Below are positions 9,199-28,621 of a stretch of 33,563 nt of DNA, in pieces. The stretch is from a virus. Position numbers and translations under genes: made by a program. Under the pieces are notes generated by a model. It did no database searches. It worked only from the letters and a program-made list of their open reading frames with translations, and was not told the origin of the DNA. Each line of letters begins with the position of its first letter. Within the stretch, counting starts at the first letter, position 1. The DNA is taken from positions 1-33,563 of IMG/VR virus record IMGVR_UViG_3300031977_001325; one strand, written 5' to 3'.

Positions 9199-10491
9199 AT
9201 GCCATTTCAAAATTGTCCAGATTGTCCAACTCCTGCCGCTTGCGCTTCTGCTGGTAAATGCTTGAACCCCAAGCACGACCACGAAATTGATGCGACAAGA
9301 AAAAATACCACCATGAGCGGCCAGCCTCGTGATGAGGAGAACTACGGCCTACGTGAGTTCTTGGATGATTACGGCCCGATGTCCATCATTACCCGTATGC
9401 TACAAGGACACGACGACGAGATACCAGCAATGCCACCTGGCCTTGGTGGTCTCGGATTTGATGCGTTAAGCACTGACCCAGATGCGCCGTCTATGAAAGA
9501 CTACCAAGAGTACGAGCAGAAGCATTTTGATGAGATACGCAAGCGTCGTAGCAACATAAGCGAAGACATTATGAACTCTGGTAAAGACGGCTTTGGCAAA
9601 ATGATGGATGCCGACGAGCTAAGAAACCATTACTCCTCTATGCAGGGCGGCGACGATACTCTTACATACGCTCAGTCTGGTGAAATGGTAATACCACGAA
9701 GAGTTCAAGCCAACTTCCCAGAGCTTGCTATGGCCGTACAACTTGCCACAGCTAAGTCAGGCCTAAACCCAGATCAGTACGTAGTCGGTAGCGAAGAAGG
9801 TAGCTACAACAAGAACACTGGCGTACAGCAGTTCGCAGACCCTTGGTATGTAACCCTGTACGAAGATGCAAAAGACTGGGCGTCAGACAGTTGGACTAAC
9901 ATAAAAGATGACGTAGTGTCTGGTGCAAAGGACTGGGCAGAAGACCCGTTAGGTAGTGACCTAACTCAGTCAGCGCTAGCTGGCGTAAGCTCTTACGGTG
10001 CGGCTAAACTTGCTGGCGCTGACAACGACCAAGCACTGCAAGCCGCCATTGGCGGAGCGGCTGGATACGGTCTAGCGGGCATGGGTGAAGAAGCCGATAT
10101 ATCCACCACACAAAAAATACTGTCTGGTGCTATGGGTGCATACGGTGCGTACAACGCCTACCAACCGCCACCACCAGAGCCGACATATACACCGTCTGCT
10201 CCACTACCAAGCAACTATGGCCAAATACTTAACAGCGTTCCTGTGGGGTATGGTGCTGACAACGAGCAGGCAAACCTATCAATGACACTGCCTTCAGCTA
10301 CTCCCCCAGCCTATACTGGAGTGACAAAGCCAGAAGGGGTTTCTTACTTAGAAGAGGTCGATGATAGGGATGGCGGTACAAGCTATGTAGATAAAGGCCC
10401 ACAATATAGCCCAACATTTGGCAGAAGCATATCTGCTCAAAGTAGGCGGGGCGACCTTGGAGGGTTTGGTAACAAGGTATTGTACATGTGA
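9199..10491 (+). CDS. virion-associated protein with N-terminal Cys cluster
   Basis: A 430-aa protein. Residues 6-21 form a Cys cluster (C6, C9, C15, C21 in NCPDCPTPAACASAGKC), a pattern also seen in tiny stand-alone phage proteins. A conserved-looking central block follows (YAQSGEMVIPRRVQ and AMAVQLATAKSGLNPDQY, about residues 153-190), then an Ala/Gly-rich helical segment at about 250-310, a Pro-rich linker (QPPPPEPTYTPSAP) and a tail ending GGFGNKVLYM. AAGGGG at 9187-9192 supports the start; ATG 9313 (Met39) is the alternative, which would remove the Cys cluster. Its place after the fibre and before the internal proteins suggests a structural or ejected virion protein. No function is proved. 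Confidence 0.7.
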   Translation: MPFQNCPDCPTPAACASAGKCLNPKHDHEIDATRKNTTMSGQPRDEENYGLREFLDDYGPMSIITRMLQGHDDEIPAMPPGLGGLGFDALSTDPDAPSMKDYQEYEQKHFDEIRKRRSNISEDIMNSGKDGFGKMMDADELRNHYSSMQGGDDTLTYAQSGEMVIPRRVQANFPELAMAVQLATAKSGLNPDQYVVGSEEGSYNKNTGVQQFADPWYVTLYEDAKDWASDSWTNIKDDVVSGAKDWAEDPLGSDLTQSALAGVSSYGAAKLAGADNDQALQAAIGGAAGYGLAGMGEEADISTTQKILSGAMGAYGAYNAYQPPPPEPTYTPSAPLPSNYGQILNSVPVGYGADNEQANLSMTLPSATPPAYTGVTKPEGVSYLEEVDDRDGGTSYVDKGPQYSPTFGRSISAQSRRGDLGGFGNKVLYM

Positions 10492-10940
10492 TTAGGTTTA
10501 TGGAAGAAGCAGATGTGGGGCATTGTGTTAATTTGGGCGAGCGGTTCCACCAGACATCAAACTGGGGCTGGATACCGTTCTCAAAAGAAAAAACCGAAGA
10601 GTATATCTTGTGGTCGATTAGAGAACCAAACAGGTTGGCTCTTGTCGCAGAAGATGTGTCAAAAGAGTTATATGGTTTCTTCTTTGCTCGCGCTTCTAGG
10701 ATTTTTTTCTCCGAAAACCACAACAGTTCTGCGGAAGAATTTATGTGGGTGTCGCCTGAAAAACGCGGAGGTGTAACGGCGATCAGGTTTATGAAGGCTT
10801 GGGAAGCATGGTGCAAAGATATGAATGTATGTCAAATGCACTTTGATCCCAACTCCCACGGACAAGGGGAAAGGTGGGACAGCTTCATGTCCAGACTTGG
10901 GTACACCCAAGAGGGTAGATGTTATAGGAAGGTCATTTAG
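10488..10940 (+). CDS. GNAT-family N-acetyltransferase
   Basis: The 150-aa protein has the standard GNAT layout. An opening strand and helix (IRFMEEADVGHCVNLGERF) are followed by beta strands up to GFFFARASRIFF, then motif A at residues 85-101 (FMWVSPEKRGGVTAIRF, with the R-G-G-x-x-A acetyl-CoA pyrophosphate loop). Motif B-like MSRLGYTQEGRCYRKVI closes the protein. Such enzymes transfer acetyl from acetyl-CoA to an amine; the substrate is not evident. The GTG start at 10488 overlaps the upstream TGA (GTGA) and is preferred over ATG 10500 because it restores the first GNAT strand. It lies inside the virion-protein block, so it may modify a virion protein or act early on host proteins. Confidence 0.8.
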   Translation: MIRFMEEADVGHCVNLGERFHQTSNWGWIPFSKEKTEEYILWSIREPNRLALVAEDVSKELYGFFFARASRIFFSENHNSSAEEFMWVSPEKRGGVTAIRFMKAWEAWCKDMNVCQMHFDPNSHGQGERWDSFMSRLGYTQEGRCYRKVI

Positions 10941-12863
10941 ATGTTTGGAAGTTCTATGAGAGTTATGGGGCCACCCCCACGCCGTACCGTGATCAAGGGA
11001 CAACCCCACATGCTGTCTTACATCACACCTGATGAAGCCGATATCTTGAAGGCTTTGGGCGGTTCAGGCGAAGCTGGCCCTATGGGTATTCCTTCTTATC
11101 CGCCTGATGGTTACGATGGTGGTGGCGGAACCAATGACAGTTCAGGCAGTAGCAGTTCAGGTAAAAGCGATAATAATGACCGCGATCCTGGCAGAAGCGG
11201 CCCTGGAGATATGGGCGCTCAGAACAACGCCAGCAATACTGACAACGCATCCAACAACCAGCAAACAGGACAGGGCAGTTCTGACCCTGATGCGAACGAC
11301 CCGCGTGCCAGTGATTGGGATAACTGGGCGCAAACAGTGGGGCAGAACTACGCCGACCCTGTAACTGGAAATGTCACAACTCCAACAGCCGACGGTAAGG
11401 GTACTGTAACCACTCTTGGTTACAACCAAATCGTATCAAACTTAAGGAATGACCCCAACGACGAAGCAGGAAAACTGGCCCAAAACATACAGAACATGAT
11501 CGAAGATGGCCGCATTGACCCTTATAGCTCAGATAGCACAAACATACAGAACGCCATTATCGGTAGCGGAATGGTTGATGGGCTATCCAGAGATCAAAGA
11601 ATACAAGCTCTTGAAGACTTAGGTCGGCGTGTGGCTATGGGTGAACAGCTAAACGCAAACGGCAAACCATCGTATGACCTATCTTTTTTGGGCGGCGGAA
11701 ACATCAATGGCTGGGCAAACAATAACCCAGACATAACTAATGAAGAGATGGCGCAGGCCTTTGCTGATGGCTTCAACAGCCAAACAGGTACAGAAGGAAT
11801 TAACACTCCTTGGGGTAGCAAACTAGGAAAAGGTCTTGGTGGGACGAGGCTAGATGTTCTAGCTAACGGTGACATTACCATTCAAAGTGGCGGTTCAAAG
11901 GTTGGAGAGAACGTACTCAACCTTGCAAAATCGTTTTACGCAGGAGTGCCAGGGTCGTTTATTGACGTGAACTTTGGGACTACTAATTATGATGGCTGGA
12001 ATAAATTTGGCAAAAACGTCAATGCACCTCAAGGAAACAACTTTAATGTATCTCTTGACCCTTTGGGTGGGCTAATGAGCCAAGTCGTTAGCCCATATGT
12101 AGGTAAAAATATATCTTCAAAAGTCGGCAAGGAAGTGTATGACCGAACCGAAAACTTAGCTTTGGGCATGTCTGCGGCGGCGGCGGCAAATGCCTATGCA
12201 AACTCTCAAATTAAAGAAGGCCTAAAGCAAGCTGGAATTAGCAACACGGCAAATATCGCCAGTATTGACCTGACTGGTGGCCAAGCAGGGGCTAATCCAA
12301 ATGTAAGCACAGGCAAGGGTTCGGCAGTAAAGGGTTCTGCAACTGACACAATACAATCAGACCTTTCTGCGGACGACACTTTAAGCAACCCTGCAACTGA
12401 CGGTGGCAGTACAGCGGCGTCAAACTTTGCCGTAGGCGGCGATGCGCCATTCAGTAAGGGTTCGGACTACACAAAAGCGGGCATAACCTATGGCGGCTAC
12501 GAAGACGACTTAGGGCCAGATGGAAATGCAGTCGATGCTACTGCGCCTAACGCAAACGGAATGGGGTTTGGTGGGTCAGTCACAACCACAAATACAAATA
12601 ACGATGATGGCGGACAAAACGACAACAAGTGGCTACAACTTCAGGGTCAGATCAAAGACATCATTGACCAAGGTCAAAACACAGGGGCTAACTACCTCTC
12701 ACCAATATCTTACTTGTCTCCAGCTAGTGGTAGAGGGTTCGGCAACTACCTGACACGGGGGAAGAATAGAGACTACGGTTCTGCTACATTTAGGGAAGCA
12801 AGTAAAAATGAAATTGACCGAGGCAAGCGCCGAGGCGGTTTCGGTCAAATCATGTTTGCATAA
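10941..12863 (+). CDS. Gly/Asn-rich virion-type protein
   Basis: A 640-aa protein that starts directly after the acetyltransferase stop, with AGGAAGG at 10926-10932. The N-terminus has YITPDEADILKALGGSGEAG and then PMGIPSYPP, followed by a low-complexity Gly/Ser/Asn/Asp stretch (about residues 55-125). A helical middle follows (IVSNLRNDPNDEAGKLAQNI, and LSRDQRIQALEDLGRRVAMG), with an Ala run at about 413-417. The protein ends in a basic GFG-type tail (RGFGNYLTRGKNRDYG ... RRGGFGQIMFA). No catalytic motif is visible. Composition and context suggest an internal or ejected virion protein. It is similar in style, and at the C-terminus in sequence, to its neighbours. Confidence 0.68.
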   Translation: MFGSSMRVMGPPPRRTVIKGQPHMLSYITPDEADILKALGGSGEAGPMGIPSYPPDGYDGGGGTNDSSGSSSSGKSDNNDRDPGRSGPGDMGAQNNASNTDNASNNQQTGQGSSDPDANDPRASDWDNWAQTVGQNYADPVTGNVTTPTADGKGTVTTLGYNQIVSNLRNDPNDEAGKLAQNIQNMIEDGRIDPYSSDSTNIQNAIIGSGMVDGLSRDQRIQALEDLGRRVAMGEQLNANGKPSYDLSFLGGGNINGWANNNPDITNEEMAQAFADGFNSQTGTEGINTPWGSKLGKGLGGTRLDVLANGDITIQSGGSKVGENVLNLAKSFYAGVPGSFIDVNFGTTNYDGWNKFGKNVNAPQGNNFNVSLDPLGGLMSQVVSPYVGKNISSKVGKEVYDRTENLALGMSAAAAANAYANSQIKEGLKQAGISNTANIASIDLTGGQAGANPNVSTGKGSAVKGSATDTIQSDLSADDTLSNPATDGGSTAASNFAVGGDAPFSKGSDYTKAGITYGGYEDDLGPDGNAVDATAPNANGMGFGGSVTTTNTNNDDGGQNDNKWLQLQGQIKDIIDQGQNTGANYLSPISYLSPASGRGFGNYLTRGKNRDYGSATFREASKNEIDRGKRRGGFGQIMFA

Positions 12864-12868
12864 AGGAG
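12862..12868 (+). promoter_or_regulatory. ribosome binding site AAAGGAG for the polyglycine protein
   Basis: AAAGGAG overlaps the stop of the upstream gene and lies 7 bases before ATG 12876. It is one of the strongest Shine-Dalgarno sites in the virion-protein block. Confidence 0.65.
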
Positions 12869-12875
12869 ATAGGGC

Positions 12876-13748
12876 ATGGGCGGTTCATCAGACGGGCCAG
12901 GTAACAGCGAAAGCACAGATCAGGCAAGAGCATCTACTCTTTCTGCTAGTGACTACAGCACAAAGAACTGGAACGGCGGTGGCGTACAGTTAAACGCTTC
13001 TGGCCGTGCCAAGATGGGATACTCAGAATACGGTTCTGACGGCGGAGGCGGCGGCGGCGGAGGCGGCGGCGGCGGTAGCTACAACCCCAGCGGCATGAAT
13101 GTGCAGACGAACAATCCTGGCAACAAGCCTAACTTTGGCTACATCACAAACTTCTTAAGTGAGAGCCAGTCAACTGAGTTCCGAGAAGGTGAAAGAAGAG
13201 ACCAAGACAGGACTAAAGGCGAAGGAGCCTTTGGTGACAAGGCTTTTATCTCGCAGTTCGGTAAGCCAGAGTTTGGCGACACAACAACTCTATCTGGTGC
13301 TTCGCCATTTGGTGAGGACAAACGCGGAAGGTTCTTGAAAGGCGAGGGTAAAGGTTACGCCAGCGAGTTCGCTAGTGACGCATCCGTGCCTCAACAGCAA
13401 GGTTCAGCTACACCAGGTGGTGAGATAGGCGAAGGGGCGCAAGGCTTCGGCGCTAGAGCTTTGGGTGGGTCAGACCAAGTAGTCGAAAACTTGCCGCCGC
13501 CAGGTGCTGAACAAACTGAAACACCTGTGGCACAGGCACAGTCAGATTTACAACTTGACCCTAACATTCCACCATTAGGGCCAGGACAGTCCATCATTCC
13601 AGATGTGAACTACGTACTGCCTACGACTGGGCAAGGCCAAATTATTGCCTTTTCTCCTAATGATCCTCAAGCGATGTACACCGCTCGTGGCCCACTGTCT
13701 CGTAACCTGACGACAGCGAGAACAGGCTTTGGAATGAAGTATACGTAG
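12876..13748 (+). CDS. polyglycine-containing virion-type protein
   Basis: A 290-aa, strongly hydrophilic and probably mostly disordered protein. Residues 56-67 are twelve consecutive glycines. A central segment (YITNFLSESQSTEFREGERR and GAFGDKAFISQFGKPEFGD) is followed by a Pro/Gln-rich part (LDPNIPPLGPGQSIIPDV) and a C-terminus ending RNLTTARTGFGMKYT. The start has a strong RBS. No domain is recognised. The position among the internal virion genes and the GFG tail suggest a virion component. Confidence 0.65.
   Translation: MGGSSDGPGNSESTDQARASTLSASDYSTKNWNGGGVQLNASGRAKMGYSEYGSDGGGGGGGGGGGGSYNPSGMNVQTNNPGNKPNFGYITNFLSESQSTEFREGERRDQDRTKGEGAFGDKAFISQFGKPEFGDTTTLSGASPFGEDKRGRFLKGEGKGYASEFASDASVPQQQGSATPGGEIGEGAQGFGARALGGSDQVVENLPPPGAEQTETPVAQAQSDLQLDPNIPPLGPGQSIIPDVNYVLPTTGQGQIIAFSPNDPQAMYTARGPLSRNLTTARTGFGMKYT
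13041..13076 (+). repeat. in-frame GGC/GGA triplet repeat (12 Gly codons)
   Basis: Twelve consecutive glycine codons (GGC, with GGA at two positions and a final GGT). An uninterrupted triplet tract of 36 bases can slip in frame during replication. Confidence 0.85.
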
Positions 13749-14693: not shown

Positions 14694-16940
14694 ATGGCAA
14701 AGTTTTTTCAAACTGCACAAAAGGCGTACAACGATACAGAAGACCGTATCTATCAGAAGCGCAAACAAAATCGAGAAGACTTTTTAGCCTACCGCAAGAT
14801 GAAAGCGGAGATGGGCGAAGACGTAACTGCTGATGAGCTACAGCAAATGCGGAGAAGCATTGCTGGTAGCGATGCCTTTTTCTTAAACCAGCTACCGCCA
14901 GGCCAAATGATGAGCCAGCTTGCTGACAGAACAAACGACAGAGCTAGGGCTACGCGGCGCAAAGAAGATGCTGACGAAGTTGCTCGTCTCGAAAAAGAAA
15001 ACGGCCTGTTCGACAACTTCGTAGGATACAACCTAGACGCTGGCGACATCACAGACCAACAAGTTCTAAACAAGATGGAGCAGGACTTTATCAAGGGTTT
15101 CCCAGATAATCCAGAACTTGGCCGTCGTTTGTGGGATGCAAACAGTCAGCGTCTGTCAGATGTATTTAACACAAAGCAGAATGAAGCTGTAACCAATTAT
15201 GCGGACACACAACTGAAGAATGTCACCTCAGTCGCAGATGCTGAGAGCATAATGGATCAACAGAACGTGGCTCAATGGAAAAAAAACGCAGTCAGGAAAG
15301 TAATCGAAAGACGCCAAAACGACAGAGACAGCGCGGCTATAGCCGCCGCTGACAAAGGTGTTGTGAACTACGATGGCGCTAAGTTACGGTTCTTGGATGA
15401 CGAAGCATTGGGCAATATAGCAACTGAGATTATTGCAGGGGCGCAAGTACAGTTAGACCCAACTAGCCAAGATTATAAAACATTACACGCTCGCATAAAG
15501 GCTTCGCTTGTTTTAAGACAGCAACAAGCTGATTCGTCTCAAGCCGATACAGACAAAAGAGCCTTTGATCAGGCCATGAACTCCGCCGACAATCCATTTG
15601 TCCGCACTGTTCTAGCACAGGGATTTGACGACCAAGACTTGCTTGACGCATACAACTTGCAGGCGAAACAATACAATCAGCCGCTGGCGCAAACTGTTGA
15701 AGACCCGAACTTCAAGTTCTGGAAAGAAGTTGCAGAACGCACAGAGGGAATTGAGTACCAAGAGCGTTACAAAGACGCAGATACTAAAGCAGAAGCCGTA
15801 GCCTCTGCCGCTCTTGAAAAGGCTAAAGCCTCAATCAACGCTATTGCAAATAGCCCTCTATTACCAGAGGGAAGTGCTGGACGTTACGCTATAGACTACT
15901 TAGTGCAAACTGGATACGTGTTCATGGGAGAGCCAAGTCAGGTTCTGCAAATGATGACAGAACAGTTTGGAGAGGATGGACTGGCAAACGCCGACCAAGC
16001 AGTGGGCGACCAGATTGTCGGCTTCCTAAAAGCACAAGGAGCCGCTGTACAGGAATCTGTATTCAAGCAAAGCATCAAGTCTGAGAACCACTCGCTCGTC
16101 ATTCCGCCTGGCACAAACATAGACACCTACGTCCTAGAAGAGATTGCAGATTACAAAGGTGACATGATACCGAGCCTAATTGCTGGGATGCTTGGTGACT
16201 TAAAGCTAGGTGCTTCTGACGCAGAGGTAGAAGCCGCACACCAGCAGTTGAGAGACTACCTTAAACTACATATAGAAAAAGATATACAGGTGGCAGTGAA
16301 CTCTCGCGGAGCGTTTAGAGGTGCTGACATAGGAACTCCTCTTGAGCAGATGAAAAACGACGTTCTCGACGCACTTGAACTAGAGCTACTCAAGCCAGAG
16401 AACAGGCGGCCAAGGCCTCAAACACTACCAAGTGGTTTGTTTGTTTTCTCAGGTGGAAACAAGTACGTGGCGCAAAACGGTGCAGGCCAGTACACAGACA
16501 TCGAAGGAAACCCAGTTATCGTCGGCAGAACTTACGAGTTCACCCCAGACAAACAGCTACGTCTGGTCGGTTCTGGCCCGTCAAGCACTCAACAGTTGCC
16601 TCAAGTATACGCTTCAGGACAGCGCTCCACGTTTGGCTACAGAGTTCCCACCCCCGCGATGGCAACCTTGGGAGACCAAATTGCCGCAGTCACGGATAGA
16701 ACCAGCACTATCGCAGGCTTCACTCCTAACCCAGCTTACGGCTATAGGGCTGGTGGGCCGTTTGACACAAGAGCCGATTGGGTTGCAAGTATTGTCAAGC
16801 AAATGGCGCAGGCATACAGAGAGCAGGGCGAGGATATAACTGACAGAGAACTGTACCAAGCCCTTGGCTCACCACTTAGCGGCTCACGGAGACATGGATT
16901 AAACGGCTCGTTCTTTGATGATGATAAGAGAACTCCATAG
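14694..16940 (+). CDS. large helical internal virion-type protein
   Basis: A 748-aa protein, predicted mostly helical and hydrophilic. The N-terminus is basic (KRKQNREDFLAYRKMKAEMG), with GSDAFFLNQLPPGQMMSQLA at about 56-75. The middle is a long helical array containing NLDAGDITDQQVLNKMEQDF and KDADTKAEAVASAALEKAK. The last 200 residues include a compact beta stretch (GLFVFSGGNKYVAQNGAGQY) and a Gly/Pro-containing tail. No transglycosylase (ES..GxxQ) or protease motif is visible. Position immediately before the giant protein parallels T7 gp15 before gp16, so a partner in the ejected internal complex is likely. The stop overlaps the second copy of the 14-base repeat. Confidence 0.66.
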   Translation: MAKFFQTAQKAYNDTEDRIYQKRKQNREDFLAYRKMKAEMGEDVTADELQQMRRSIAGSDAFFLNQLPPGQMMSQLADRTNDRARATRRKEDADEVARLEKENGLFDNFVGYNLDAGDITDQQVLNKMEQDFIKGFPDNPELGRRLWDANSQRLSDVFNTKQNEAVTNYADTQLKNVTSVADAESIMDQQNVAQWKKNAVRKVIERRQNDRDSAAIAAADKGVVNYDGAKLRFLDDEALGNIATEIIAGAQVQLDPTSQDYKTLHARIKASLVLRQQQADSSQADTDKRAFDQAMNSADNPFVRTVLAQGFDDQDLLDAYNLQAKQYNQPLAQTVEDPNFKFWKEVAERTEGIEYQERYKDADTKAEAVASAALEKAKASINAIANSPLLPEGSAGRYAIDYLVQTGYVFMGEPSQVLQMMTEQFGEDGLANADQAVGDQIVGFLKAQGAAVQESVFKQSIKSENHSLVIPPGTNIDTYVLEEIADYKGDMIPSLIAGMLGDLKLGASDAEVEAAHQQLRDYLKLHIEKDIQVAVNSRGAFRGADIGTPLEQMKNDVLDALELELLKPENRRPRPQTLPSGLFVFSGGNKYVAQNGAGQYTDIEGNPVIVGRTYEFTPDKQLRLVGSGPSSTQQLPQVYASGQRSTFGYRVPTPAMATLGDQIAAVTDRTSTIAGFTPNPAYGYRAGGPFDTRADWVASIVKQMAQAYREQGEDITDRELYQALGSPLSGSRRHGLNGSFFDDDKRTP

Positions 16941-16949
16941 GGACGACTG
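16936..16949 (+). repeat. 14-base intergenic repeat, copy 2 (CATAGGGACGACTG)
   Basis: It is identical to 4415-4428. Its TAG is the stop codon of the upstream gene. It lies just before the hairpin leading to the giant gene. The shorter core GGGACGAC also occurs in the terminator after the scaffold gene (3065-3072). Confidence 0.5.
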
Positions 16950-16961
16950 ACCTTAAACTAC

Positions 16962-17010
16962 GCGATACTCTAGTTGTACAAATTCAACACTGAGAAAACT
17001 GGAGTATCGC
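16962..17010 (+). promoter_or_regulatory. hairpin burying the ribosome binding site of the giant gene
   Basis: GCGATACTCTAGTT (16962-16975) pairs with AACTGGAGTATCGC (16997-17010): 14 pairs with one T-G wobble and a 21-base loop. The only Shine-Dalgarno for the giant gene, GGAG at 17001-17004, lies inside the 3' arm and is fully paired. The GTG start is 2 bases after the stem. Confidence 0.72.
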
Positions 17011-17011: not shown

Positions 17012-20000
17012 GTGCCGTATAAACATGAAGGATTAGCTAACCCTTTTGGCCAAGTGTCACCCGCTGACAACAACGAGGGTTACAACTCACAAGACTACTC
17101 TTCTAATCTAAACGAAGATACCGCCAAAAATTTGCTAGGAGACAACAGGTTTCTAAAAGACCTGTATGACTACTATGGCCAAAGAGATGGCAAGTCTTTC
17201 AACAACGCAGACGAAGCCGTTGAGTACATGCTTAATGACAGGCGCTGGCGTAACAATAACACGATCTCAATAGGTCGAGACGTATACGACGCATACAACC
17301 AGACAGATGGTCAGACACGCAGACTGGCCCGCATCCAACAAGTATATGACGCATTGCCGTTCGGCGTAGATGGTGCAATGGAAGCCATCGCCGAAACTGG
17401 CGCGGCTATGCTTGCTGACCCAATCAACTTAATTGGCTTTGGTGCTGGTGGGCAAGCCGCACGACTAGCCGCTGGCACAGCGGCCAAAGGCCTTTCCAAG
17501 CGAGAGATAACAAAACAAGCTATGGGCAAAGCCATTGCATCTGGTGCAAAAGGCGAAGCCGTAGCTTCTGGTATTGCAGAAGGCATCGCAGACATCGGTA
17601 TCCAAAACCGTAACGTAGCTGTTGGCCTGCAAGACGAAGTTTCACTACTTAGAGGTGCGGGAGCCGCCGCCTTTGGTGCAGTGACTGGTGGCGCTATGGG
17701 CGCTGGCATGGGTGCTTTAGGTGCTGTTGCGCCTAAGATACCTGGCGCAGACAAGATACCTTTACTTGGTCGCGCATTTGATGACACTACAGACGGTGCA
17801 AACCAGTTGTCAGCGGAAGGTTTGGCCCAGATCAGCGCTCGTACTGGGCAAAACATGGATAGAAACTCTATCCGTCGTGGTTTGGCAGACAGGGCTGTAA
17901 GTCAATCTGGCCGTCAAATAGATGAGGGTCTCGTTGCAAGGCCTTCTGCTCGTGGGGACATGTTACCAGAAGGCGACGATGGCGACGAAGTAGATACAAA
18001 TGTTGCTCTGGAAACTAATCTTAAGCGCACCAAAGAAGAACTGGAAACACGCTTAAAAGACATCCAAAACATGGTTGACGACGGAGACACTGTTGGCGCA
18101 GACAACGCTCGCCGCACAGTCGTCGCTCCGCTACAGCAAAAGATTACACGTATTAAAAACATTATGGCATGGCCTCAGAACAGAGCCGCCGCACAAGCAA
18201 AAATAGATGCCGAACGCAGACGCATGGCAGAGGCTGGTGAAAACCAAAGTGCTGAACTAGACCGCCTTAACAAGTCCTACGAAGAACAAGAGACTGATTA
18301 TATACAGTTTGTTAATCAGGTTAAATCTGAAAAAGCCAGAGGTCAAAGCCAACTTACGGAAAGACTTGACACGTTCTTAGACGGACAGTCAGGAGAGCTT
18401 CTGGAAGATGCTGTGGAAATCGAGGGCGGCACTGTATCTCCTGGTATGCCGCAAGCACAGCGCATGACGCCTCTGAACCCACCAGAGGGGGATACTCCAA
18501 CTCCACAAGAGTTGCGTCCACAACCCCCAGAGGAACCAGAGACTGGCGACGTAGCGCAAGAGACTGTAGAACAGGTAGCACAAGAAGCCGAGCAAGCCCC
18601 AGAGGTAAGCCCAGACGAACGCATGACGCAAATCAATGCCCGTCTTGATGGCCGCAAGAAAGGTAGTATTGCGTATGAGCGTAAACGCCTTGAGCGTGAA
18701 ATGGCTAACATGCCTGAGACAAATGAAGACGGCACTCCCAACCCAGAACGTCTTACCCTTCAGAACCGCCTTAACGAGATAGACAAAGAAGGCGTGGCTC
18801 TAAAAGAAGAGCAACAGTCACTCAACAATGCTCGTGCAGAAGAGCAACAACAGGCGGCTGACCAGCTTGCAAATGGCAACCCAGAGCAAGTTACTCAAGC
18901 ACAGGTTTTAGAACAGCGTGTAAATGAACAGCCAGAAGTAGCGCCAACTGAGCCACCAGAGCCAGTTGTATCTGTGGACACACAGCTAAACGAGTTTATC
19001 GATACAGAGTTTGTTCCTTCTGTAAGAAACATTAAGAAAGAGTTTGCCGCTCTGGGTATGCGTAAAGAACAGTCAGACGCAATCGTCGGCGCTATGCCAA
19101 AAGGCAACAGCAAGGAAAACATTGAAGCACGTAGGGCTATATTTAGAGATACAGTCAACGTAGTCCGTGGCCAGAACGCATGGCAACAAATACTAAACAG
19201 GTCTTCTGGCAACGGAACCACTGATGAATTGTTCGACGAGAACATAGCCAAAGCACTGATAGAGGCTACAGTAGGAGAGGGTTTGCACCCACATGCTGAC
19301 AGTGCTTTCCGTGAGTGGCGAGCTAGGTCTGTAGCCCGTTACGCTATGGACTTGGACAACGAGTTCATGGGTCTTGCCACAATACAAGACTTGCTAGACG
19401 TAACTCGCACCCGTCACGGCGAGGGTGAGTTCTACGACATGGTAGCCGAGTTCTGGGCTAACGCACAGAAAGGTATCCTACCATCACCAGACGATGGTAT
19501 GCCGCAGTTTGTACGTCAACAGATCGCTACACTTCCGAAAGAGATGCAAGTCGAATGGAACGCCTTTAGACAGGCGGCTGTCCGCAATCTTATGAAGACT
19601 GGCAAGCTGTCAGAAGCTAACGCCAAAAGACTAATCGCCACTCAGATTGATGCTATGCTTGACCGCTTCTTGCAGATGCAGGCGTATCAAGCGACAGACC
19701 TCAAAGGAAATGTGTACAGTGTGAAGCATCTTGCCACACGTACAATGAAGGCCGTTGATGTCAACGAGCAGGCTATAAAAGACGGACACGGAGAACACAT
19801 TGGCCGTGTCCAACAAAATCTACGCAACGTAACGACAGGCAATGGTCGGGCTGGCTCTGGAAGAGACATTAGCTCACGCATGGTTGGCCGTGTGCAAAGC
19901 ATCCTTGCTGGTACACACGAAGGAGGGTTTGGCGGCAGAACATTTACTCAAATCCGCACAACTCGTGACGGCAAGAACTTTATATACAACGCATCTGAAA

Positions 20001-23000
20001 GTGCTAGACGCCTAAACGAAGAGGCGATGCTAAACGCCAACAAGTCTAAAGCAAGAGCCTTTGATGAGACATTGCGCGAGCGTAGCATAGAAGCCGCTGA
20101 ACGTGCTAAAGACGAAGGCAGGCAGAATGTTCTTGATCCTAGAGACTTGGAGGACATACAGAAAGAACTGCGTAACGCAGAGGGCGCTGTTAAAAGAGCG
20201 CAGAAGCATTACGACGACGTAATCAACGAAGGTGCTACAAGCGACGACCCGCAATACCTGAACGACTTGGACGAAGGTAGGGATGTACCAAATCAGGGCG
20301 AGCCAGAAGCAAAGACAAAGCTGGAAAATGCACAGGCACGTCTTGCTCAAGCAATACAAAACGTAAGAACAGTAGCAACCTTCCCAGATGATGCAGACCT
20401 CGACGTAGTTAAGGCCGCACTCAAAGACGTGTACGAGCCTTTGGTTTATACGGATAGAGCTACAGTTGTATCCAACAAAATTGAAGCTGACAGAATGTCT
20501 GCTGTGCGTCGCTACTACGAAGTAGAGGCAAGAGCAAAAGCTGTAAACAAAGACATAGCTATAGCCGAGCGTCAAGGCAACGCATCAAAAGCTGTAGAGC
20601 TAAAGAAAGAACGTGCGAAGCTAAACAAGCGTAAGAAAGAAATGCTTGACCGCATGACCACTTCCGACAAGAAGCGGATAAAGGCAGATGATACACAGGC
20701 CGCTGTCAGAACACTGGCTAACTTGCATAGAGAGCTTCGTCGTGCAAGGTCTCAGGATGCTGAGACATCATCTGATGTTCCAGAGAGCGAACTTGTTAGA
20801 GAAGTGGAAGACGTATTTAACGTCAACCTCAGTGAAGACGATATGGCGGCGGCTGAATACTACGCTAACCAAGAAGAGCTTGCGGCTCTTAGCTATCAGG
20901 AAATGCAGGGCGAGCTTGCACACTTGCAAGACAACAAAGCTGATCTTGCGCCAGAAGAAGTTACCGCTGTAGCTAAAGAGATTGTCACTACAGCGCAAGA
21001 GAAGGTGCAATCTACAAAGCCTCAGACCCGTCCTAAAGGTGAGCCAGAGCCGCACATAGTCCAGATCGGAAGCCGTGCTTACAACATGGCAAAGGACGTT
21101 CAGTACCAGAAGGTATCTGGAGGCACTACTAAGTTCTTTGTAAATCAAAGAGAGCTTGGCTCTGTACGTGAGTTCGTGGACGAGGATGGTAAAAAAGCCT
21201 ACCAAATCATTCGTCGCAACGGCGACACTGTTACATCTGACATGGCCTTTACTCGTAGTGAGTTGTACAAGAAGCTGGCCAAGTCGGTGAAGAAAGAACT
21301 TGATGAAGTTCTTTCTTCAAATAACGTAGTCGAAGAAAGATCAGTAGCAACTGTTCCGACAGAAATACCAGACTACCACAACACACAGCGCTACGCTGGC
21401 GTAGAAGACGCCCCACTTACTGTGACTTCATACGACCCTATCACTGGTGCGTCTGAGCAAATACCAGTGCGTACAGGTTTGACACAAGATTTGATGCCTG
21501 AAGGCAAGATCATAGCGCTACAGATTACAGACCCCAAACACCCAGACTTCGGGAAGAACAAGGGCGTCCGTGTACTTAACCTGACAAGCAGAAAAGGGAC
21601 GCCACCTCAGACTAATTTGAAACAGATCGTGGGCAACCTGAAGCCCGACCAGTTCGTAGTCGGTTCTACAAACGACGTAGATGCTAAAGGAAACCCAATC
21701 AAGTCAGGAACAGTCGCCGCAGTAAAGACGTTCCGCCCACTAGACCCAGACGCTGAGTTTGTAACCATGAGTGGCGAGCGTTTGACTGGCCGCCAAGCTG
21801 GTGAGACAGAAAGCCTGTTACCACCAGAAGTTGTGGGTCTGGAAAGCTCTCCTCGCGCTAGAGAGAACAGAGCTATCAATGTCAAAGAGCTTGATAACAT
21901 TGAGCTAAATGAACAAAACACTCCTCCTCTGTTGAAGCAGTTAGGTCTTCCAGAGAATGTACGCACAGTGGGTGACTTACAGCGTTTTGTCACAGACATG
22001 GAAGACGTAGAGTGGAGCAAGTTTAACAGCATCGAAGAGTTCGATCAGTTCGCTGGTGCGTTAGAAGCTGGATATGATGCTATTGCAAAGTTCGCCCCTA
22101 ATGGCGTTAAGCTACCTAACCAGTCCCGTGTACAGTCTTACAAGCAACTTAACGAAATGCTTTCTGGCAAGGACAGTAAAGAGATTGCAGAGATACTAAC
22201 GGTATTCAACATGATCTCTGGCTCCAACAATAGGCAGGGTGCTTTGGTTGAGGGTGCTATGCCAGTGTTTGATAAGGCGGACAGATATGCCTTCAAACAA
22301 CCTGGCCGCCACATGGCAGACGATGCCCAGACAAATACTATACTTATTGGACAGTCTAATAAGCAGACTGATGCGATGAACTTCGCACATGAAATGGGGC
22401 ATTGGGCTTACATGAACATGCTAACTCCTGCCGAACGCATGGAGTTTTGGCAGATAGCAAGAGGCTACGTAGGCGCTGACGGTGCAAACATAGACGCCCT
22501 GAAGAAAAAACTGCCAGGACTTAGCACTTCCGAAATACGTAGTCCGTCTGAGTTTTTTGCAAATCAGTTCGCTATATACGTAGCCAACCGCAGGCAAGCG
22601 GCACAAGGTAATTTACTGTCCAGACTGTTTAAGGATGTGGGCAGAAAAGCTGAAGGCTTGGTTCGTAGGCTTTTGGGTATGGATAACCCATTAGACGAAC
22701 AGCTTGTTGAAATGTTTGACCGTATCATGCCTGATCCAAAGATTGCTACAGATAGCGTAACTGCTGGTCGCCCGTTAAAGAACCAGTTTGAGACTATAGC
22801 CGCAAAAGGTGGAGGGAGTTCTGCGGCGAGAATGGCGGCTAAACAGTTGCATGATCTGCGAGAGGTTCAGATAGAGCTTGAAGAAGCACTACGGGCTGGC
22901 GGCGCTGTTGGCCATGATGCTCGCATACTTGCCGACGTACTAGAGAAGGCCGCAAAGAGAGTATACGGGAAGTTTGGTGGCCGTCCTGGCGAGAAGACAC

Positions 23001-26000
23001 ACGCTAGTCGCACAGACGCAGACGGCAACGTAGTCTCTGGTGGCCTGCGGGTGACGATGCTCGACAGCTACAGAAACGGCAAGCCGCTTTACGATGCAAA
23101 CAAAACTGACATTACCCTTCCAAACGGCAAGACAGTAAAACCCTTTAAGTACATGTCTAGCCGCATCGCTCGTGGTCGTATGCTTGCTCAATCTTACCGC
23201 ATCATGCGCTTCCTTAACGACGAGAAGTTTACTAATGCGCTTAGTAGGCTTGACCAAGCAGAGCTTGTGGAAGATGAGTTGAGTGCAGAGTTGGCAAGGC
23301 TAATTGCCACTCAAGAAGACGGCGGACTTATGTCCATTCCAGAAGAGGTTGTCGCCAACATGAGCGATAACAGCGGTTCTTTAGCAAGTTCGTTTGAAAC
23401 AGAGGCCGCTATTCTACGCTCAATCTCAGAGAAAACAGATGCAGATGGCAAGCTGTCAGCGCTTATGGTTCAGCAAGCCAACGATATGATTGTTGCTTTG
23501 GACAACGGCATAGATGAGTTTGTACGCATATACAACACAAACTTCAGAACTACAGACGGACTAGCGCCTCAAATAGATAAGGCTGGTCGTGTGTATAAAG
23601 GCGGCAATCTAGTCGCACAGAAATACGTGAAGCGTGTAGAGAAGAAGTCTAAAGACCTTGCTGTCAAAGTGGCTCAATCAATAAACAACGCAGAGACAGA
23701 GGTGTTTGGTAACGCATCTGTGGAAGACGTAAACCCAGTAACATCTAGGTCTCCTAAAGAGATGACCAACCAAGAGATACTAAAACGTCTTGGCACAGAC
23801 AGGTCTGATACGGCTCAAAACAGGGAGCTTAAACAAGAGCTTTGGTCTAGGGCAAAGGCATTGCCTGACGACCACGCCGTCGAAGCTACGCCAGAAATCG
23901 CCGCTTTCTACAGAGATGTAAACATTGAAGACAACGGCGCTGATGCACTGGTCAGATTTGAGAAAGCACTAGACGAAGGCAACTACGACCTTGCGGAAGC
24001 GGCCATAAACTTCGTCGCCTTCTTGAAACGCAACCCAGTAGAGGTGAAGTCAAGCGTCGTCAACCGTGCCATCGACATTGAAACTGCACAACGCAGTACA
24101 CCCGACACGCAGAACGGCATACCTGGCGATGCTCCTGCCGCAGTCAAAGAGGTTCTTACAAAGCTAACTCACAGAGACAAGAAGGTAGAGTATGTGTCTC
24201 GTACAATCATGTACCGTATGCTGAACCTTATGGGCAGAACGGCTACAGACTTGGTTGAGAACAAAACAACCTTTATGTCTGTAGAGGACTTGTACAGAAT
24301 GTCAGGCAACCCAATGCCGCAAGGAACTCAAGCGGCATTTGCAGAGCCTGCAATCCTTAGTGGTCAAGCGTTTAACGATACCCGCAAACAACTAAGACAG
24401 TTCGCCATAGGCATCACTGGTGGGTCATCTGATCCGACTGATGTAATGCACGAGATAGGACACATGCTTAGTCGTGTAACCCTCGACGACGTTGACAGAG
24501 ACCACATGCTTCAGGGTTACACGGAGGCTATTGAGAAGGGTGATCGTAACGCACTAAGAATACAAGAAGCATATTCAAACTTAGCTTTAGATGAACCATA
24601 CACAGAGCGTCAGATAGCGGAAGAGTGGTTCGTAGATGGCTTTGGCGAATGGATGACAGAGCGAGTAGCTAAAGGAAACCTGTTTGATGTGCGTCAAGGA
24701 GACGGCACGTTTGCAGACCTGACTGTCAAGGGATACTTAAGACAGATTGCTGACAGGCTGTATGAGAGCGTTGCATACGTTCTAAACGGTATGATTGGTA
24801 GAAAGTCTGTTCGCCAGATGTACCGCCAGATGCTTTATCATGGCGATATGTTTGCTCGTAAGCGTTCTGAGAACCCAATTAAATCAGCCGTAAACACTCA
24901 CGAGTATCCTGCTGTAAGCCCTGCGCTTGCAAAGCCATACGTGCGTCAAGTAATTGACAGCATGAGCAGAGAAAAGCAGTTACTACTTAGGGAGTTCTTG
25001 GGTGCTGGGCCAGACGAAGACTTAATGGACTTTGTTTCTTACCATGGCACACCTGTACTAGATCAGTTTGATAGGTCTCGGAACCCCGACGTATACCTGA
25101 TACCTAGTGAAGACGGATACCACGGGCCAGGTGTATACACATCAAGTAACCACAACTTCGCGGCTGGTTACGCTGACAGAACTCCTGCTGAAGCATATCG
25201 CAGACTGGCAGGAGACCTTGAGGGTGAGAAGCTAGAGCAAGCAGAAGGCATCATTAAGCAGATAGAAGAGGCTAACGAATGGCTTGAACATTCTCAGTGG
25301 ATGGCAACTGTTGATGCACCGCAAGACAAGGTTTTGGATCGCGTTGCTCACCTGACCGCAAAACTGGAGACTGCTAAAGAAGCCTTTGCCAGACTTACTG
25401 GAAACAAAAAGATGGCAGGCGTACTGCCTATGTTTGTTCGTCGCAAGAACCATTTTGATGTCAGAACTAACAAGACCTTTAGCTACAGCACAGGCGAGCC
25501 TTCAGACGTACAGCCGTTGCTTGTTTCTGCACAAAAGCGTGGCTACATAACCGAACATCAGCATCAGTACATATCAGACTACATACGTGAGGGTGGTGTA
25601 GACGGCGGTTATTTCTACGACCTTATGACAAACGCTATGGCTAAGTACAGAGATGCGTATGGTCAAGCCCACAATCCTAAAAGCCATGCACATGCCGACC
25701 ATGTATATGGTCGCAAGAGAATGGCGCAGTTCTTAAAGGACGAAGGGTACGAAGGTATCATTGGCGAGGCTGGGAATGACCCTAACATGCCAGAAATAAT
25801 CACCTTCGACCCGAACCACATTAAGCATGTAGACGCAGACTTCTACGACAGCGACAGACGTGGAATGTACTACAGCGTTCTTGGTGAGCCAGGCACAGTT
25901 GCACCAGCAGGAAATGCATTAGAAGGCATGATGCTTTCGGGGAAACCAATCAACCTAGACGACATGGTTGGTATAAGCCGTCAGCTACAGGAGGCTGGCG

Positions 26001-28621
26001 TACCAGACTTGGTAGCACCGATACGGCGTATGGTTCGTAAGGAACGACCAACTGCTGAAGACGTAGATGCTGTTAAAAAGAACTCTTCGATCTTCCACTT
26101 CTTTGCAGAGAATAGTGCAAGACTGAGAGACTACGGAGCAACTTGGCTAGGCGACTATATAAAACCACAGAATGGTACAGGCATATATGAACGCCACGAC
26201 GTAGACTTAGCTGACAAGGTTATGCCTATATTCAACTCGCTCAAGCTACTGCCTGACAACAAGGGTTGGACAAAGCGTTGGGCAAGAAAGTCTTTGGCGT
26301 TCTTACCTAATAAGGTGACGTCAGGTGCTGACCTACAATCACAGCCGCAGTCTCACTCTCGCATACTCGGTGCAATCAGACGTGGGGAAGACGATGTGAG
26401 GAAGCTGAACCCACAGGAACAGCGCATTGCTCGCCAGATTATCGCGGCGTTTGAAGCTGAGAGAGAGCGTATGGTATCGATGAACATGCCAGTAGGCGAT
26501 GCTCGTCGTGGGCCAGGCGACTACTATGTGCCGCAACAGTGGGACATAGAGATCATAAGGCAAAATCCGTCAAAGGCTAAACAGGCATTTGCACAATTCT
26601 TCTTTGAGGAAAGCCGCAGGCCAGACTTTGAAGAGGCAACCTTGACCCCAGATCAGGCGCATAGAAAGTCAGAAGATTTTATCAACGGCCTTCTGGACAC
26701 CGATGGAGAAATCTACGGGGACGACGTACTACGTCGTGCCGTCGGCGACCCATTCTATAATCGTGTCATTAACCTCCAGCCAGAGCAGTACGACTTTATG
26801 GATAGCTTCCTAGTCAACGATCTGGAAGGACTGCTATCAAGATACTTTGACAGCACGACACGTAAGATAGCACTAACAGAAAAGTTTGGGGTAGGTGGAC
26901 ACGGCTTCTCTTCATACATGACGACTGCAAGCCAAGGTGTGGATGGTGCTGTTAAGACGTTGATGTCAAACAAGAAAGTTGTTTACAGATACAGACAGTA
27001 CCAAGAAGAAGCACCTATAGAGCAGATGCTTGTACCAGCTTTGAAGATTGGTGAAGACAAGACTAAGCAGTTGATGGAAACATCTTTGCGTATGCTGAAA
27101 TCAAAGGAAGCTACCGTTGACGAAGTTAAACGGATGATCCTGTCACACTATGATCCACAAGATCAGGCAGACCCCAATCTGCAAATACGTGTAGACAGCA
27201 TTGTAAACGCTCTAAAGGATTTCCCAACAAGGCCGCCACAAGACCAAGCTAGGATGTTGGCTGAAGACATGATCGACATTCTGAACAAGCGACCTCTTAG
27301 AAAGTTCTCAGAGAACCAAACCGCTTATAAGGTCTCAAGAAACGTCAAGGCGTTTAACTCTATATCACTGCTTGGCTTTACAACCCTAACTTCTTTGGGT
27401 GATAAGGTTCTGCCGCTGATACGTTCTGGAAACATGAAAGCCTTTCTGAAGGCGCAGAAAAAATACTACAGCGATCCATCCTATCGTGCCGCCGCCAAGA
27501 ACATTGGCGTTGGCATTGAGAACCTAATGCATGACCGCATGGTTCAGATGGCTGGTGAAGGTTCCCAGAAGCTACAAAACAGCTTCTTTAACTTCACACT
27601 ACTAACTCCTTGGACAAACATGAACAGGGAGATAGCAGGCGTAGTGGGCTTTGAGGCCTTCAAGTCTGAGATAGCTAGAGCCAGAAGGCTTGCAACAACA
27701 GGCAGAAAGGATAGCAGAGCTTACGCAACAGCAGTTCGTTTCCTGACAAGGTATGGCCTAACTGGTGAAGGAGCGGAGATGGACTTCTTGAACATCAATG
27801 CACCAGAGCTTACAGACATACGTGAGACAGACATGCAGTCTAACAAGGCTCTTAGGTATGCTCTTCTCAGGTTTACCAACGAAGCAATCTTTACGCCTAA
27901 CCCTAATGACATACCGACATGGGCGCAGACCCCGTGGGGTTCTATGTTCTTCCAGCTAAAGAGCTTCCAGTTAATGATGGCTCGTATGGGTAAGTACGTT
28001 CTCAGTGAGGCGTACAACGGAAACCCAATGCCAGCATTTTACTTAGCTACTGCTGGTGTTGGATTCGGCTGGATGAGTGCGGCGGCCAAAGACCACGTTC
28101 AATCTCGTGGTGGAGAAGACAATGAGCAGGCCGCATTAAGAGAGCGTCGCATAACTGATACCTCTTTCGACTGGATGGCCAAGGGCTTGGGAGTAAAAGA
28201 GGACAGCATGACTGACGAAGTTCTTGGGAACTACTTTGAAGGCTTGTTGGCTATAGGCGGTCTTGGGTTGTTTGCGGAGCTTCTGTACAACACGGCAGAG
28301 CAGGCAGACAACGCGGCATACGGCAAGGTTCGTATGGCTGGTGCAGTGTTCGGCCCATCGGTTGGCGTTGCTGAAGACTTCTACGACGTAGCCATAGCTG
28401 GGCCAGGCGGGTTCTTTGAAGACAAAGCGGCTCGTCGTCGTGAAGCTGTACGGTCAGTGATGGGCAGAGTGCCTATAGTCGGTGGCGTCAGAGGCTTCAA
28501 GGAAGGAGTGGTTGACGCTGTAGCTGGCGAGGCTGGGTCTGGAGGTAAGAGGAAACAGGCGAGCAAGTTTGGTAAGAGTTCTGGATTTGGAAGTAGCGGC
28601 TTCGGGAAGGATGGCTTCTAA
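17012..28621 (+). CDS. giant polyvalent internal virion protein (two zincins, ART-like domain)
   Basis: A 3869-aa protein with a GTG start; the first in-frame stop upstream is at 16991 and GGAG lies 7 bases before. The N-terminus has FLKDLYDYYGQRDGKSF, WRNNNTISIGRD and LADPINLIGFGAGGQAARLA (to about residue 153), and a Gly/Ala hydrophobic stretch at 215-241. Coiled-coil and Pro/Glu-rich linkers follow at about 325-650. The first zincin is HEMGH (H1793, E1794, H1797) with E1847 in SPSEFFANQF as likely third ligand. The second is HEIGH (H2480, E2481, H2484) with E2537 or E2538. An ADP-ribosyltransferase-like domain follows (YHGT at 2677, GVYTSS at 2707, PEIITFDPNHIK at 2927). The helical C-terminal 850 residues contain FNSISLLGFTTLTSLGDKVL and WGSMFFQLKSFQLMMARM, seen in very large podovirus virion proteins. 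Polyvalent proteins are known to be delivered into the host with phage DNA; injection here is inferred. No RNA polymerase motif was seen. Confidence 0.85.
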   Translation: MPYKHEGLANPFGQVSPADNNEGYNSQDYSSNLNEDTAKNLLGDNRFLKDLYDYYGQRDGKSFNNADEAVEYMLNDRRWRNNNTISIGRDVYDAYNQTDGQTRRLARIQQVYDALPFGVDGAMEAIAETGAAMLADPINLIGFGAGGQAARLAAGTAAKGLSKREITKQAMGKAIASGAKGEAVASGIAEGIADIGIQNRNVAVGLQDEVSLLRGAGAAAFGAVTGGAMGAGMGALGAVAPKIPGADKIPLLGRAFDDTTDGANQLSAEGLAQISARTGQNMDRNSIRRGLADRAVSQSGRQIDEGLVARPSARGDMLPEGDDGDEVDTNVALETNLKRTKEELETRLKDIQNMVDDGDTVGADNARRTVVAPLQQKITRIKNIMAWPQNRAAAQAKIDAERRRMAEAGENQSAELDRLNKSYEEQETDYIQFVNQVKSEKARGQSQLTERLDTFLDGQSGELLEDAVEIEGGTVSPGMPQAQRMTPLNPPEGDTPTPQELRPQPPEEPETGDVAQETVEQVAQEAEQAPEVSPDERMTQINARLDGRKKGSIAYERKRLEREMANMPETNEDGTPNPERLTLQNRLNEIDKEGVALKEEQQSLNNARAEEQQQAADQLANGNPEQVTQAQVLEQRVNEQPEVAPTEPPEPVVSVDTQLNEFIDTEFVPSVRNIKKEFAALGMRKEQSDAIVGAMPKGNSKENIEARRAIFRDTVNVVRGQNAWQQILNRSSGNGTTDELFDENIAKALIEATVGEGLHPHADSAFREWRARSVARYAMDLDNEFMGLATIQDLLDVTRTRHGEGEFYDMVAEFWANAQKGILPSPDDGMPQFVRQQIATLPKEMQVEWNAFRQAAVRNLMKTGKLSEANAKRLIATQIDAMLDRFLQMQAYQATDLKGNVYSVKHLATRTMKAVDVNEQAIKDGHGEHIGRVQQNLRNVTTGNGRAGSGRDISSRMVGRVQSILAGTHEGGFGGRTFTQIRTTRDGKNFIYNASESARRLNEEAMLNANKSKARAFDETLRERSIEAAERAKDEGRQNVLDPRDLEDIQKELRNAEGAVKRAQKHYDDVINEGATSDDPQYLNDLDEGRDVPNQGEPEAKTKLENAQARLAQAIQNVRTVATFPDDADLDVVKAALKDVYEPLVYTDRATVVSNKIEADRMSAVRRYYEVEARAKAVNKDIAIAERQGNASKAVELKKERAKLNKRKKEMLDRMTTSDKKRIKADDTQAAVRTLANLHRELRRARSQDAETSSDVPESELVREVEDVFNVNLSEDDMAAAEYYANQEELAALSYQEMQGELAHLQDNKADLAPEEVTAVAKEIVTTAQEKVQSTKPQTRPKGEPEPHIVQIGSRAYNMAKDVQYQKVSGGTTKFFVNQRELGSVREFVDEDGKKAYQIIRRNGDTVTSDMAFTRSELYKKLAKSVKKELDEVLSSNNVVEERSVATVPTEIPDYHNTQRYAGVEDAPLTVTSYDPITGASEQIPVRTGLTQDLMPEGKIIALQITDPKHPDFGKNKGVRVLNLTSRKGTPPQTNLKQIVGNLKPDQFVVGSTNDVDAKGNPIKSGTVAAVKTFRPLDPDAEFVTMSGERLTGRQAGETESLLPPEVVGLESSPRARENRAINVKELDNIELNEQNTPPLLKQLGLPENVRTVGDLQRFVTDMEDVEWSKFNSIEEFDQFAGALEAGYDAIAKFAPNGVKLPNQSRVQSYKQLNEMLSGKDSKEIAEILTVFNMISGSNNRQGALVEGAMPVFDKADRYAFKQPGRHMADDAQTNTILIGQSNKQTDAMNFAHEMGHWAYMNMLTPAERMEFWQIARGYVGADGANIDALKKKLPGLSTSEIRSPSEFFANQFAIYVANRRQAAQGNLLSRLFKDVGRKAEGLVRRLLGMDNPLDEQLVEMFDRIMPDPKIATDSVTAGRPLKNQFETIAAKGGGSSAARMAAKQLHDLREVQIELEEALRAGGAVGHDARILADVLEKAAKRVYGKFGGRPGEKTHASRTDADGNVVSGGLRVTMLDSYRNGKPLYDANKTDITLPNGKTVKPFKYMSSRIARGRMLAQSYRIMRFLNDEKFTNALSRLDQAELVEDELSAELARLIATQEDGGLMSIPEEVVANMSDNSGSLASSFETEAAILRSISEKTDADGKLSALMVQQANDMIVALDNGIDEFVRIYNTNFRTTDGLAPQIDKAGRVYKGGNLVAQKYVKRVEKKSKDLAVKVAQSINNAETEVFGNASVEDVNPVTSRSPKEMTNQEILKRLGTDRSDTAQNRELKQELWSRAKALPDDHAVEATPEIAAFYRDVNIEDNGADALVRFEKALDEGNYDLAEAAINFVAFLKRNPVEVKSSVVNRAIDIETAQRSTPDTQNGIPGDAPAAVKEVLTKLTHRDKKVEYVSRTIMYRMLNLMGRTATDLVENKTTFMSVEDLYRMSGNPMPQGTQAAFAEPAILSGQAFNDTRKQLRQFAIGITGGSSDPTDVMHEIGHMLSRVTLDDVDRDHMLQGYTEAIEKGDRNALRIQEAYSNLALDEPYTERQIAEEWFVDGFGEWMTERVAKGNLFDVRQGDGTFADLTVKGYLRQIADRLYESVAYVLNGMIGRKSVRQMYRQMLYHGDMFARKRSENPIKSAVNTHEYPAVSPALAKPYVRQVIDSMSREKQLLLREFLGAGPDEDLMDFVSYHGTPVLDQFDRSRNPDVYLIPSEDGYHGPGVYTSSNHNFAAGYADRTPAEAYRRLAGDLEGEKLEQAEGIIKQIEEANEWLEHSQWMATVDAPQDKVLDRVAHLTAKLETAKEAFARLTGNKKMAGVLPMFVRRKNHFDVRTNKTFSYSTGEPSDVQPLLVSAQKRGYITEHQHQYISDYIREGGVDGGYFYDLMTNAMAKYRDAYGQAHNPKSHAHADHVYGRKRMAQFLKDEGYEGIIGEAGNDPNMPEIITFDPNHIKHVDADFYDSDRRGMYYSVLGEPGTVAPAGNALEGMMLSGKPINLDDMVGISRQLQEAGVPDLVAPIRRMVRKERPTAEDVDAVKKNSSIFHFFAENSARLRDYGATWLGDYIKPQNGTGIYERHDVDLADKVMPIFNSLKLLPDNKGWTKRWARKSLAFLPNKVTSGADLQSQPQSHSRILGAIRRGEDDVRKLNPQEQRIARQIIAAFEAERERMVSMNMPVGDARRGPGDYYVPQQWDIEIIRQNPSKAKQAFAQFFFEESRRPDFEEATLTPDQAHRKSEDFINGLLDTDGEIYGDDVLRRAVGDPFYNRVINLQPEQYDFMDSFLVNDLEGLLSRYFDSTTRKIALTEKFGVGGHGFSSYMTTASQGVDGAVKTLMSNKKVVYRYRQYQEEAPIEQMLVPALKIGEDKTKQLMETSLRMLKSKEATVDEVKRMILSHYDPQDQADPNLQIRVDSIVNALKDFPTRPPQDQARMLAEDMIDILNKRPLRKFSENQTAYKVSRNVKAFNSISLLGFTTLTSLGDKVLPLIRSGNMKAFLKAQKKYYSDPSYRAAAKNIGVGIENLMHDRMVQMAGEGSQKLQNSFFNFTLLTPWTNMNREIAGVVGFEAFKSEIARARRLATTGRKDSRAYATAVRFLTRYGLTGEGAEMDFLNINAPELTDIRETDMQSNKALRYALLRFTNEAIFTPNPNDIPTWAQTPWGSMFFQLKSFQLMMARMGKYVLSEAYNGNPMPAFYLATAGVGFGWMSAAAKDHVQSRGGEDNEQAALRERRITDTSFDWMAKGLGVKEDSMTDEVLGNYFEGLLAIGGLGLFAELLYNTAEQADNAAYGKVRMAGAVFGPSVGVAEDFYDVAIAGPGGFFEDKAARRREAVRSVMGRVPIVGGVRGFKEGVVDAVAGEAGSGGKRKQASKFGKSSGFGSSGFGKDGF

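Follow-up and report, generated by a model that had tools for sequence, protein, structure and literature searches.

A short conserved C-terminal tail shared by three putative ejection proteins in a short-tailed phage of the CRP-810 type

Introduction

Why should three neighbouring proteins of one phage, which resemble each other little elsewhere, end in the same kind of short peptide? The question is raised by a stretch of 33,563 bases, hereafter called the window, a complete IMG/VR record that covers part of the genome of a short-tailed phage, a relative of Roseobacter phage CRP-810. Little is understood of how short-tailed phages bring ejection proteins into their heads, since the rapid evolution of these proteins defeats comparison. 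A short conserved peptide on three putative ejection proteins in a globally distributed marine phage family offers a direct, testable handle on this process; the tail is found across a large group of marine bacteriophages not yet in culture.

Results

Gene order and putative ejection proteins

The capsid protein of the window is 62% identical to that of CRP-810, and the genes downstream of the capsid and tail-tube genes follow in the order fibre, A, GNAT, C, D, E, F, giant. Gene A (9199..10491, plus strand), the first gene 3′ of the tail fibre, is an open reading frame of 430 residues. It is followed by a GNAT acetyltransferase gene (10488..10940, plus strand; phrog_1249, E 1.5e-19), by gene C (10941..12863, plus strand), an open reading frame for a fast-evolving protein of 640 residues, and by gene D (12876..13748, plus strand), an open reading frame for a Gly-rich, largely disordered protein of 290 residues. 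The next two genes, E and F, encode 308 and 748 residues, respectively, and the open reading frame of the giant protein (17012..28621) has 3869 codons for amino acids. In the sequence ATGTGA at 10486-10491, the GNAT gene begins with a GTG that overlaps the stop codon of A, and the last Met codon of A may be fixed in part by the start of this next gene. The GNAT-like gene of the ejection cluster occurs twice in tandem in L052, L054, L058, L072 and L225. A protein with RCC1-like WTWGxN..G repeats is encoded 5′ of the capsid gene (38-1393), and two adjoining genes of the relative G001 (15049-19014) resemble it.

Comparison of A, C and D of the window with PHROG and Pfam yielded no match, and a profile search of the PDB using A and C yielded no significant one. 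Both in the window and in its relatives, the three genes sit in the structural cluster beside the tail-tube, fibre and giant genes, with the tail-bearing genes within 10 kb of the capsid gene, and MxGG proteins at equivalent positions in Vibrio, Caulobacter and Microcystis phages match phrog_4287, a DNA ejection protein. From this gene order and from the relatives annotated as DNA ejection proteins, we infer that A, C and D are present in the virion, and we regard them as putative internal (ejection) proteins of a CRP-810-type short-tailed phage. The best conserved part of A (residues about 148-214, 9640-9840) is a GGDDTLxYxxxGE(M/I)VIP...NPxQYxVGSxxGxYN...F domain, which resembles a DDxxPAxLSxGE(F/Y)V motif of phage tape-measure and virion proteins.

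The tail in A, C and D

The C-termini of the three window proteins read ...RRGDLGGFGNKVLYM in A, ...DRGKRRGGFGQIMFA in C and ...TTARTGFGMKYT in D, and all of them have the form R-x(0-6)-GFG-x-hydrophobic-COOH. In A, the tail RRGDLGGFGNKVLYM occupies 10444..10488 on the plus strand, with the GFG codons at 10462-10470, and forms the end of a longer C-terminal module (RDGGTSYVDKGPQYSPTFGRSISAQSRRGDLGGFGNKVLYM, 10366..10488, plus strand). The conserved columns of this module in a 27-member alignment are RDxG..Y ... F(S/G)R.(L/I) ... RR ... GFG, and it shows likeness to the end of C in other genomes. The tail of C, RRGGFGQIMFA (12828..12860, plus strand; GFG codons 12837-12845), likewise belongs to a module (RDYGSATFREASKNEIDRGKRRGGFGQIMFA, 12768..12860, plus strand) that gives a profile match to the tails of A. 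In the alignment of C, which has 23 members and a mean column identity of 20%, the tail ranks 12th in conservation of 624 windows. The tail of D, RTGFGMKYT (13719..13745, plus strand; GFG codons 13725-13733), ends a module (GPLSRNLTTARTGFGMKYT, 13689..13745, plus strand) defined in a 23-member alignment, and every one of the 23 homologues has Arg282 and Gly284. Inside D, at residues 190-196 (13443-13463), lies a second motif of the GFG type, QGFGxRAL; its Phe and second Gly are invariant in 23/23 homologues and its conservation is at least that of the tail.

A low-confidence AF2 model of A has helices at residues 254-271, 276-292 and 303-320, and residues 403-430 are predicted to be disordered; the hydrophobic helices of A are Gly-rich. 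The model of D, also of low confidence (mean pLDDT 49), is mostly disordered. The predicted disorder of the end of A and of most of D is what a flexible linear motif would show, but is no proof of one.

Conservation of the tail

We counted the tail in non-redundant relatives with a capsid protein at least about 70% identical to that of the window, near-duplicates being dropped, and used a strict pattern, R-x(0-6)-G[FWY]G within the last 22 residues. It was observed in A of 22/26 genomes, C of 8/23 and D of 20/22, and most of the tails of C that fall outside it retain RR-x-G-hydrophobic. By comparison, it was absent from all of the roughly 290 further proteins encoded at these loci (E 0/19, F 0/5, GNAT 0/24, fibre 0/26, upstream proteins 0/219). 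The numbers expected by chance were 0.00 for A, 0.27 for C and 0.08 for D when estimated from internal windows of the same proteins, and 0.11, 0.09 and 0.16, respectively, when estimated from composition. Usually 4-8 residues separate the end of the GxG from the C-terminus, an Arg or Lys stands no more than six residues before it in 56/57 cases, and the shared sequence lies within about 20 residues of the C-terminus. The outcome named in the preliminary description as refuting, tails absent or freely varying in homologues, did not come about for A and D and did so only in part for C.

In close relatives, the Gly codons GGG, GGC, GGT and GGA and the Phe codons TTT and TTC are all used while the GFG peptide is fixed, and this synonymous variation indicates that selection acts on the peptide and not on the RNA. 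Genes C and D, moreover, have a GGAG sequence of their own at or just after their stop codons. The tail is real, conserved at the protein level and limited to A, C and D among the genes of the cluster; that it is a common, selected feature of these three proteins is well supported. The three proteins end as the preliminary description had it, and do so far above chance expectation, though they are not strictly consecutive, the GNAT gene lying between A and C.

Only uncultured viral contigs yielded homologues of A, C and D. Capsid-based scans covered two further sets of 80 loci, and on the window's side of the family nearly all relatives keep the tail on the genes at the positions of A, C and D. 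Examples are RRRIGFGDRIII, RRKGFGGKVFIV, RRGRGFGDMILV and RRTGWGQNVVYA for A, RRRGFGDKLTGIVV, RRSGIGNGILFG and RRTGLNDKRIGVVIG for C, and ARSGFGRRYS, RRTGFGNGIIIA and KRTGFGRSLFANT for D. Relatives found later, via homologues of A and other search patterns, agree, with RRKGFG, RRRGYG and RRKGLGFG in A and SRTGFG and PRTGFG in D. Among the cultured phages searched, we found no match at the DNA level, no protein match for A, D or a homologue of A, and only insignificant matches to the tail consensus; prophages with D were not found in species genomes. Relatives by capsid protein (L208-L212) occur in metagenome bins assigned to Phycisphaerae, Gammaproteobacteria, Brevundimonas, Neomarinimicrobiota and Flavobacteriales; because binning error is possible, these hosts are uncertain.

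Kinship of the three tails

To compare the families, we built one profile per family from the last 40 residues of its members. Each family's profile recognized the tails of the other two with an AUC of 0.90-0.97 against 279 other C-termini and of 0.82-0.95 against 560 internal segments of A, C and D themselves. Alignment of the tails with hhalign gave E 6e-5 for A-C, 3e-4 for C-D and 4e-4 for A-D, versus a probability below 1% for every control; by these profile comparisons the three tails are of one type. The A and C proteins of L060 align at residues 263-324 and 517-583, respectively (E 3e-6), over a stretch that spans P-x-G-[VI]-x-Y, an R-[DN]-x-G-like segment and RR-x-GFG; A and C thus share a C-terminal module of up to about 60 residues in some genomes. 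D has GP-[IL]-SRxL where A has FSRxL, and an M(C/G)GG N-terminus is common to C and D and recurs in the position-equivalent proteins of Vibrio, Caulobacter and Microcystis phages. These similarities make it likely that the C-terminal parts of A and C have one ancestor, and possible that D shares it. The view that the proteins are otherwise unlike each other consequently needs amending: their remainders are unalignable, whereas A and C share the module and C and D the N-terminus.

Decay of the tail and the CRP-810 side

Within the family, the pattern has limits. In the sub-clade of L016 and L036, three or four residues follow the tail of A, which ends in IDDQ or IDDEK, and the FG has been lost from C (RRSGILFG). 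Single tails also decay independently, that of D in L069 and L072 and that of A in L094-L101. On the capsid tree, the tail is present on all of the window's side and in L204 and L205, two rows basal to the CRP-810 side, and it is missing from the 19 rows of the CRP-810 side. There, RR-GFG is mostly lost and a related [A/G]FSxN-hydrophobic tail is kept, which shows a weak profile likeness to the upstream half of the tail of A (E 0.006). The distant contig L209, from a gammaproteobacterial bin, ends in AFSQALNPRFAGGFGTTIRL, which combines both halves. With moderate support, we read the [A/G]FSxN ends and L209 as traces of an ancestral module that was trimmed on the CRP-810 side.

A different type of end was seen in the gp38-like second ejection-type proteins of L129, L132, L167 and L001 and in gp34 of CRP-810, the counterpart of the giant protein, which are Trp/Phe-rich at their C-termini. 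Such ends on the CRP-810 side, for example WFDSKFGTNF and NSWSKSFDSKWK, are possibly another shared tail.

The giant protein

The giant protein ends in KSSGFGSSGFGKDGF (28574..28618, plus strand), and on the strength of its similar look it had been listed with A, C and D. Its GFG end recurs in close relatives only, the giants of wider relatives mostly ending in other aromatic-rich strings, and comparison with the tail profiles of A, C and D gave no scoring match (E 3.6 or worse). Since it neither scores nor persists in wider relatives, it is not the same tail; we rejected the giant protein as a fourth bearer and judge its end to be a different, lineage-restricted feature. The C-terminal part of the giant protein matches virion structural PHROGs, and in CRP-810 the homologue of this part is a separate gene, gp34. 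A weak match of the giant protein to ART-PolyVal (E 0.009) fell below the cut-off.

Discussion

With its G-aromatic-G core, basic residues before and hydrophobic residues after it, a set distance from the end, and its presence on three dissimilar neighbours, the tail has the look expected of a peptide that docks into a common groove. Our best inference is a role in docking or packaging, and we tentatively prefer, while rating it a little short of probable, the reading that the tail recruits A, C and D to a shared partner before ejection. The module would consist of [F/I/L]-S/G-R-x-[L/I], one or two Arg, the G-aromatic-G and 4-8 residues with a hydrophobic end, and one partner would receive all three tails in grooves of the same kind, the portal or head lining, a scaffold, the internal core or the giant protein being candidates for it. 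This partner would bring the different proteins into the nascent particle and position them together for ejection, the tail acting as a C-terminal counterpart of a capsid targeting sequence. Binding, the single partner and the purpose of recruitment are here deduced from the pattern and its distribution. Speaking against shared docking are the strict pattern in only 8/23 genomes for C, the independent decay of single tails, the altered ends of A and C in the sub-clade of L016 and L036, and the fact that the CRP-810 side lives without RR-GFG; moreover, tails inherited with one ancestral C-terminal domain would be similar even without a shared partner. Possible, if rather doubtful, is a family-wide C-terminal recruitment code in short-tailed phages, in which the procapsid or internal core has a single receptor site that reads R-x-GFG-hydrophobic and loads any protein that bears it. 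If true, this would be, to our knowledge, the first such C-terminal loading signal known for an ejection set.

The tails might instead act after ejection, holding A, C and D together or to a tunnel or membrane complex in the cell envelope, with packaging being independent of them. The precedent is gp16 of T7, whose five basic C-terminal residues are needed for infectivity (PMC8954989), and the Gly-rich hydrophobic helices of A would suit membrane insertion, and the tail itself is basic and hydrophobic; the strict G-aromatic-G is, however, more specific than a need for charge, and we consider this assembly role somewhat unlikely. It is less probable still that A and C, and perhaps D, descend from one ancestor, with the tails left over from the duplication of a C-terminal domain and maintained because each protein separately needs them to fold or to be stable. 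Such an origin would account for the stretch of up to about 60 residues shared by A and C, with its E value in L060, and for the M(C/G)GG N-termini of C and D, but the remainder of the three proteins cannot be aligned, the part that was kept is a flexible extreme end, predicted to be disordered in A, rather than a globular core, and D tails are a better match than C tails to A in only some genomes.

Membrane targeting had also been put forward in the preliminary description, and a peptide that mimics an outer-membrane C-terminal signal or forms an amphipathic anchor could have basic and then hydrophobic residues at its C-terminus, as observed here. The invariant parts, however, are the Arg and the two glycines around the aromatic residue; the last residue, by inspection, is M, A, T, L, I, V, G, D, Q or K; in one sub-clade, A ends in IDDQ or IDDEK; and neither the aromatic end nor the alternating pattern of an outer-membrane beta-signal is seen. 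These features do not support the suggestion, and we regard it as very unlikely. Hardly credible is a by-product of chance, of composition or of the ribosome-binding site of the next gene. The proteins are indeed Gly-rich, and the last codons of A lie where the ribosome-binding site of the GNAT gene should be, because the stop codon of A overlaps its GTG start. Yet 0.1-0.3 occurrences are expected as against the 22, 8 and 20 observed, and the equally placed E, F and GNAT lack the tail. Chance and composition were ruled out by the composition and internal-window controls, and a ribosome-binding-site constraint on the codons by the synonymous variation and the separate GGAG at the stops of C and D.

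The preferred reading, a tail that docks A, C and D before ejection, can be set beside several known systems. CRP-810 belongs to the same family as the window and has the same general order of structural genes, but its sub-branch is without tail-bearing A- and D-like genes, and the first ejection-type protein there ends in [A/G]FSxN-hydrophobic. The term "C-terminal" occurs nowhere in the main text of the paper on the CRP-810 family (PMC11288001), and our search of the open-access literature found no conserved C-terminal motif of phage virion proteins. T7 gp16 resembles the putative ejection proteins of the window in its basic C-terminal end; in T7, however, such an end is described for gp16 only and not across the ejection set.

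The capsid targeting sequence of phage T4 is N-terminal and is cleaved by the prohead protease. It is a short sequence on highly diverse internal proteins, which it brings into the head (PMC3012670). The tail of A, C and D is likewise a short sequence on otherwise different proteins of one phage; it differs in being C-terminal and of another sequence, and encapsidation by means of it is a proposal. The cargo-loading peptide of encapsulins comprises about 10 residues at the extreme C-terminus of different cargos encoded beside the gene of an HK97-fold shell (PMC7355545). Here, too, a short C-terminal sequence is found on several genes near a shell gene, although the shell is a phage head, to whose inner face the tail might bind, and the two peptides are compared by description. 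Should a reporter fused to the tail be packaged, the tail could serve to load phage particles much as the T4 and encapsulin tags do for theirs. By analogy with these two systems, our best reading of the tail is a docking module that would work like the T4 capsid targeting sequence or the encapsulin peptide while being a member of neither.
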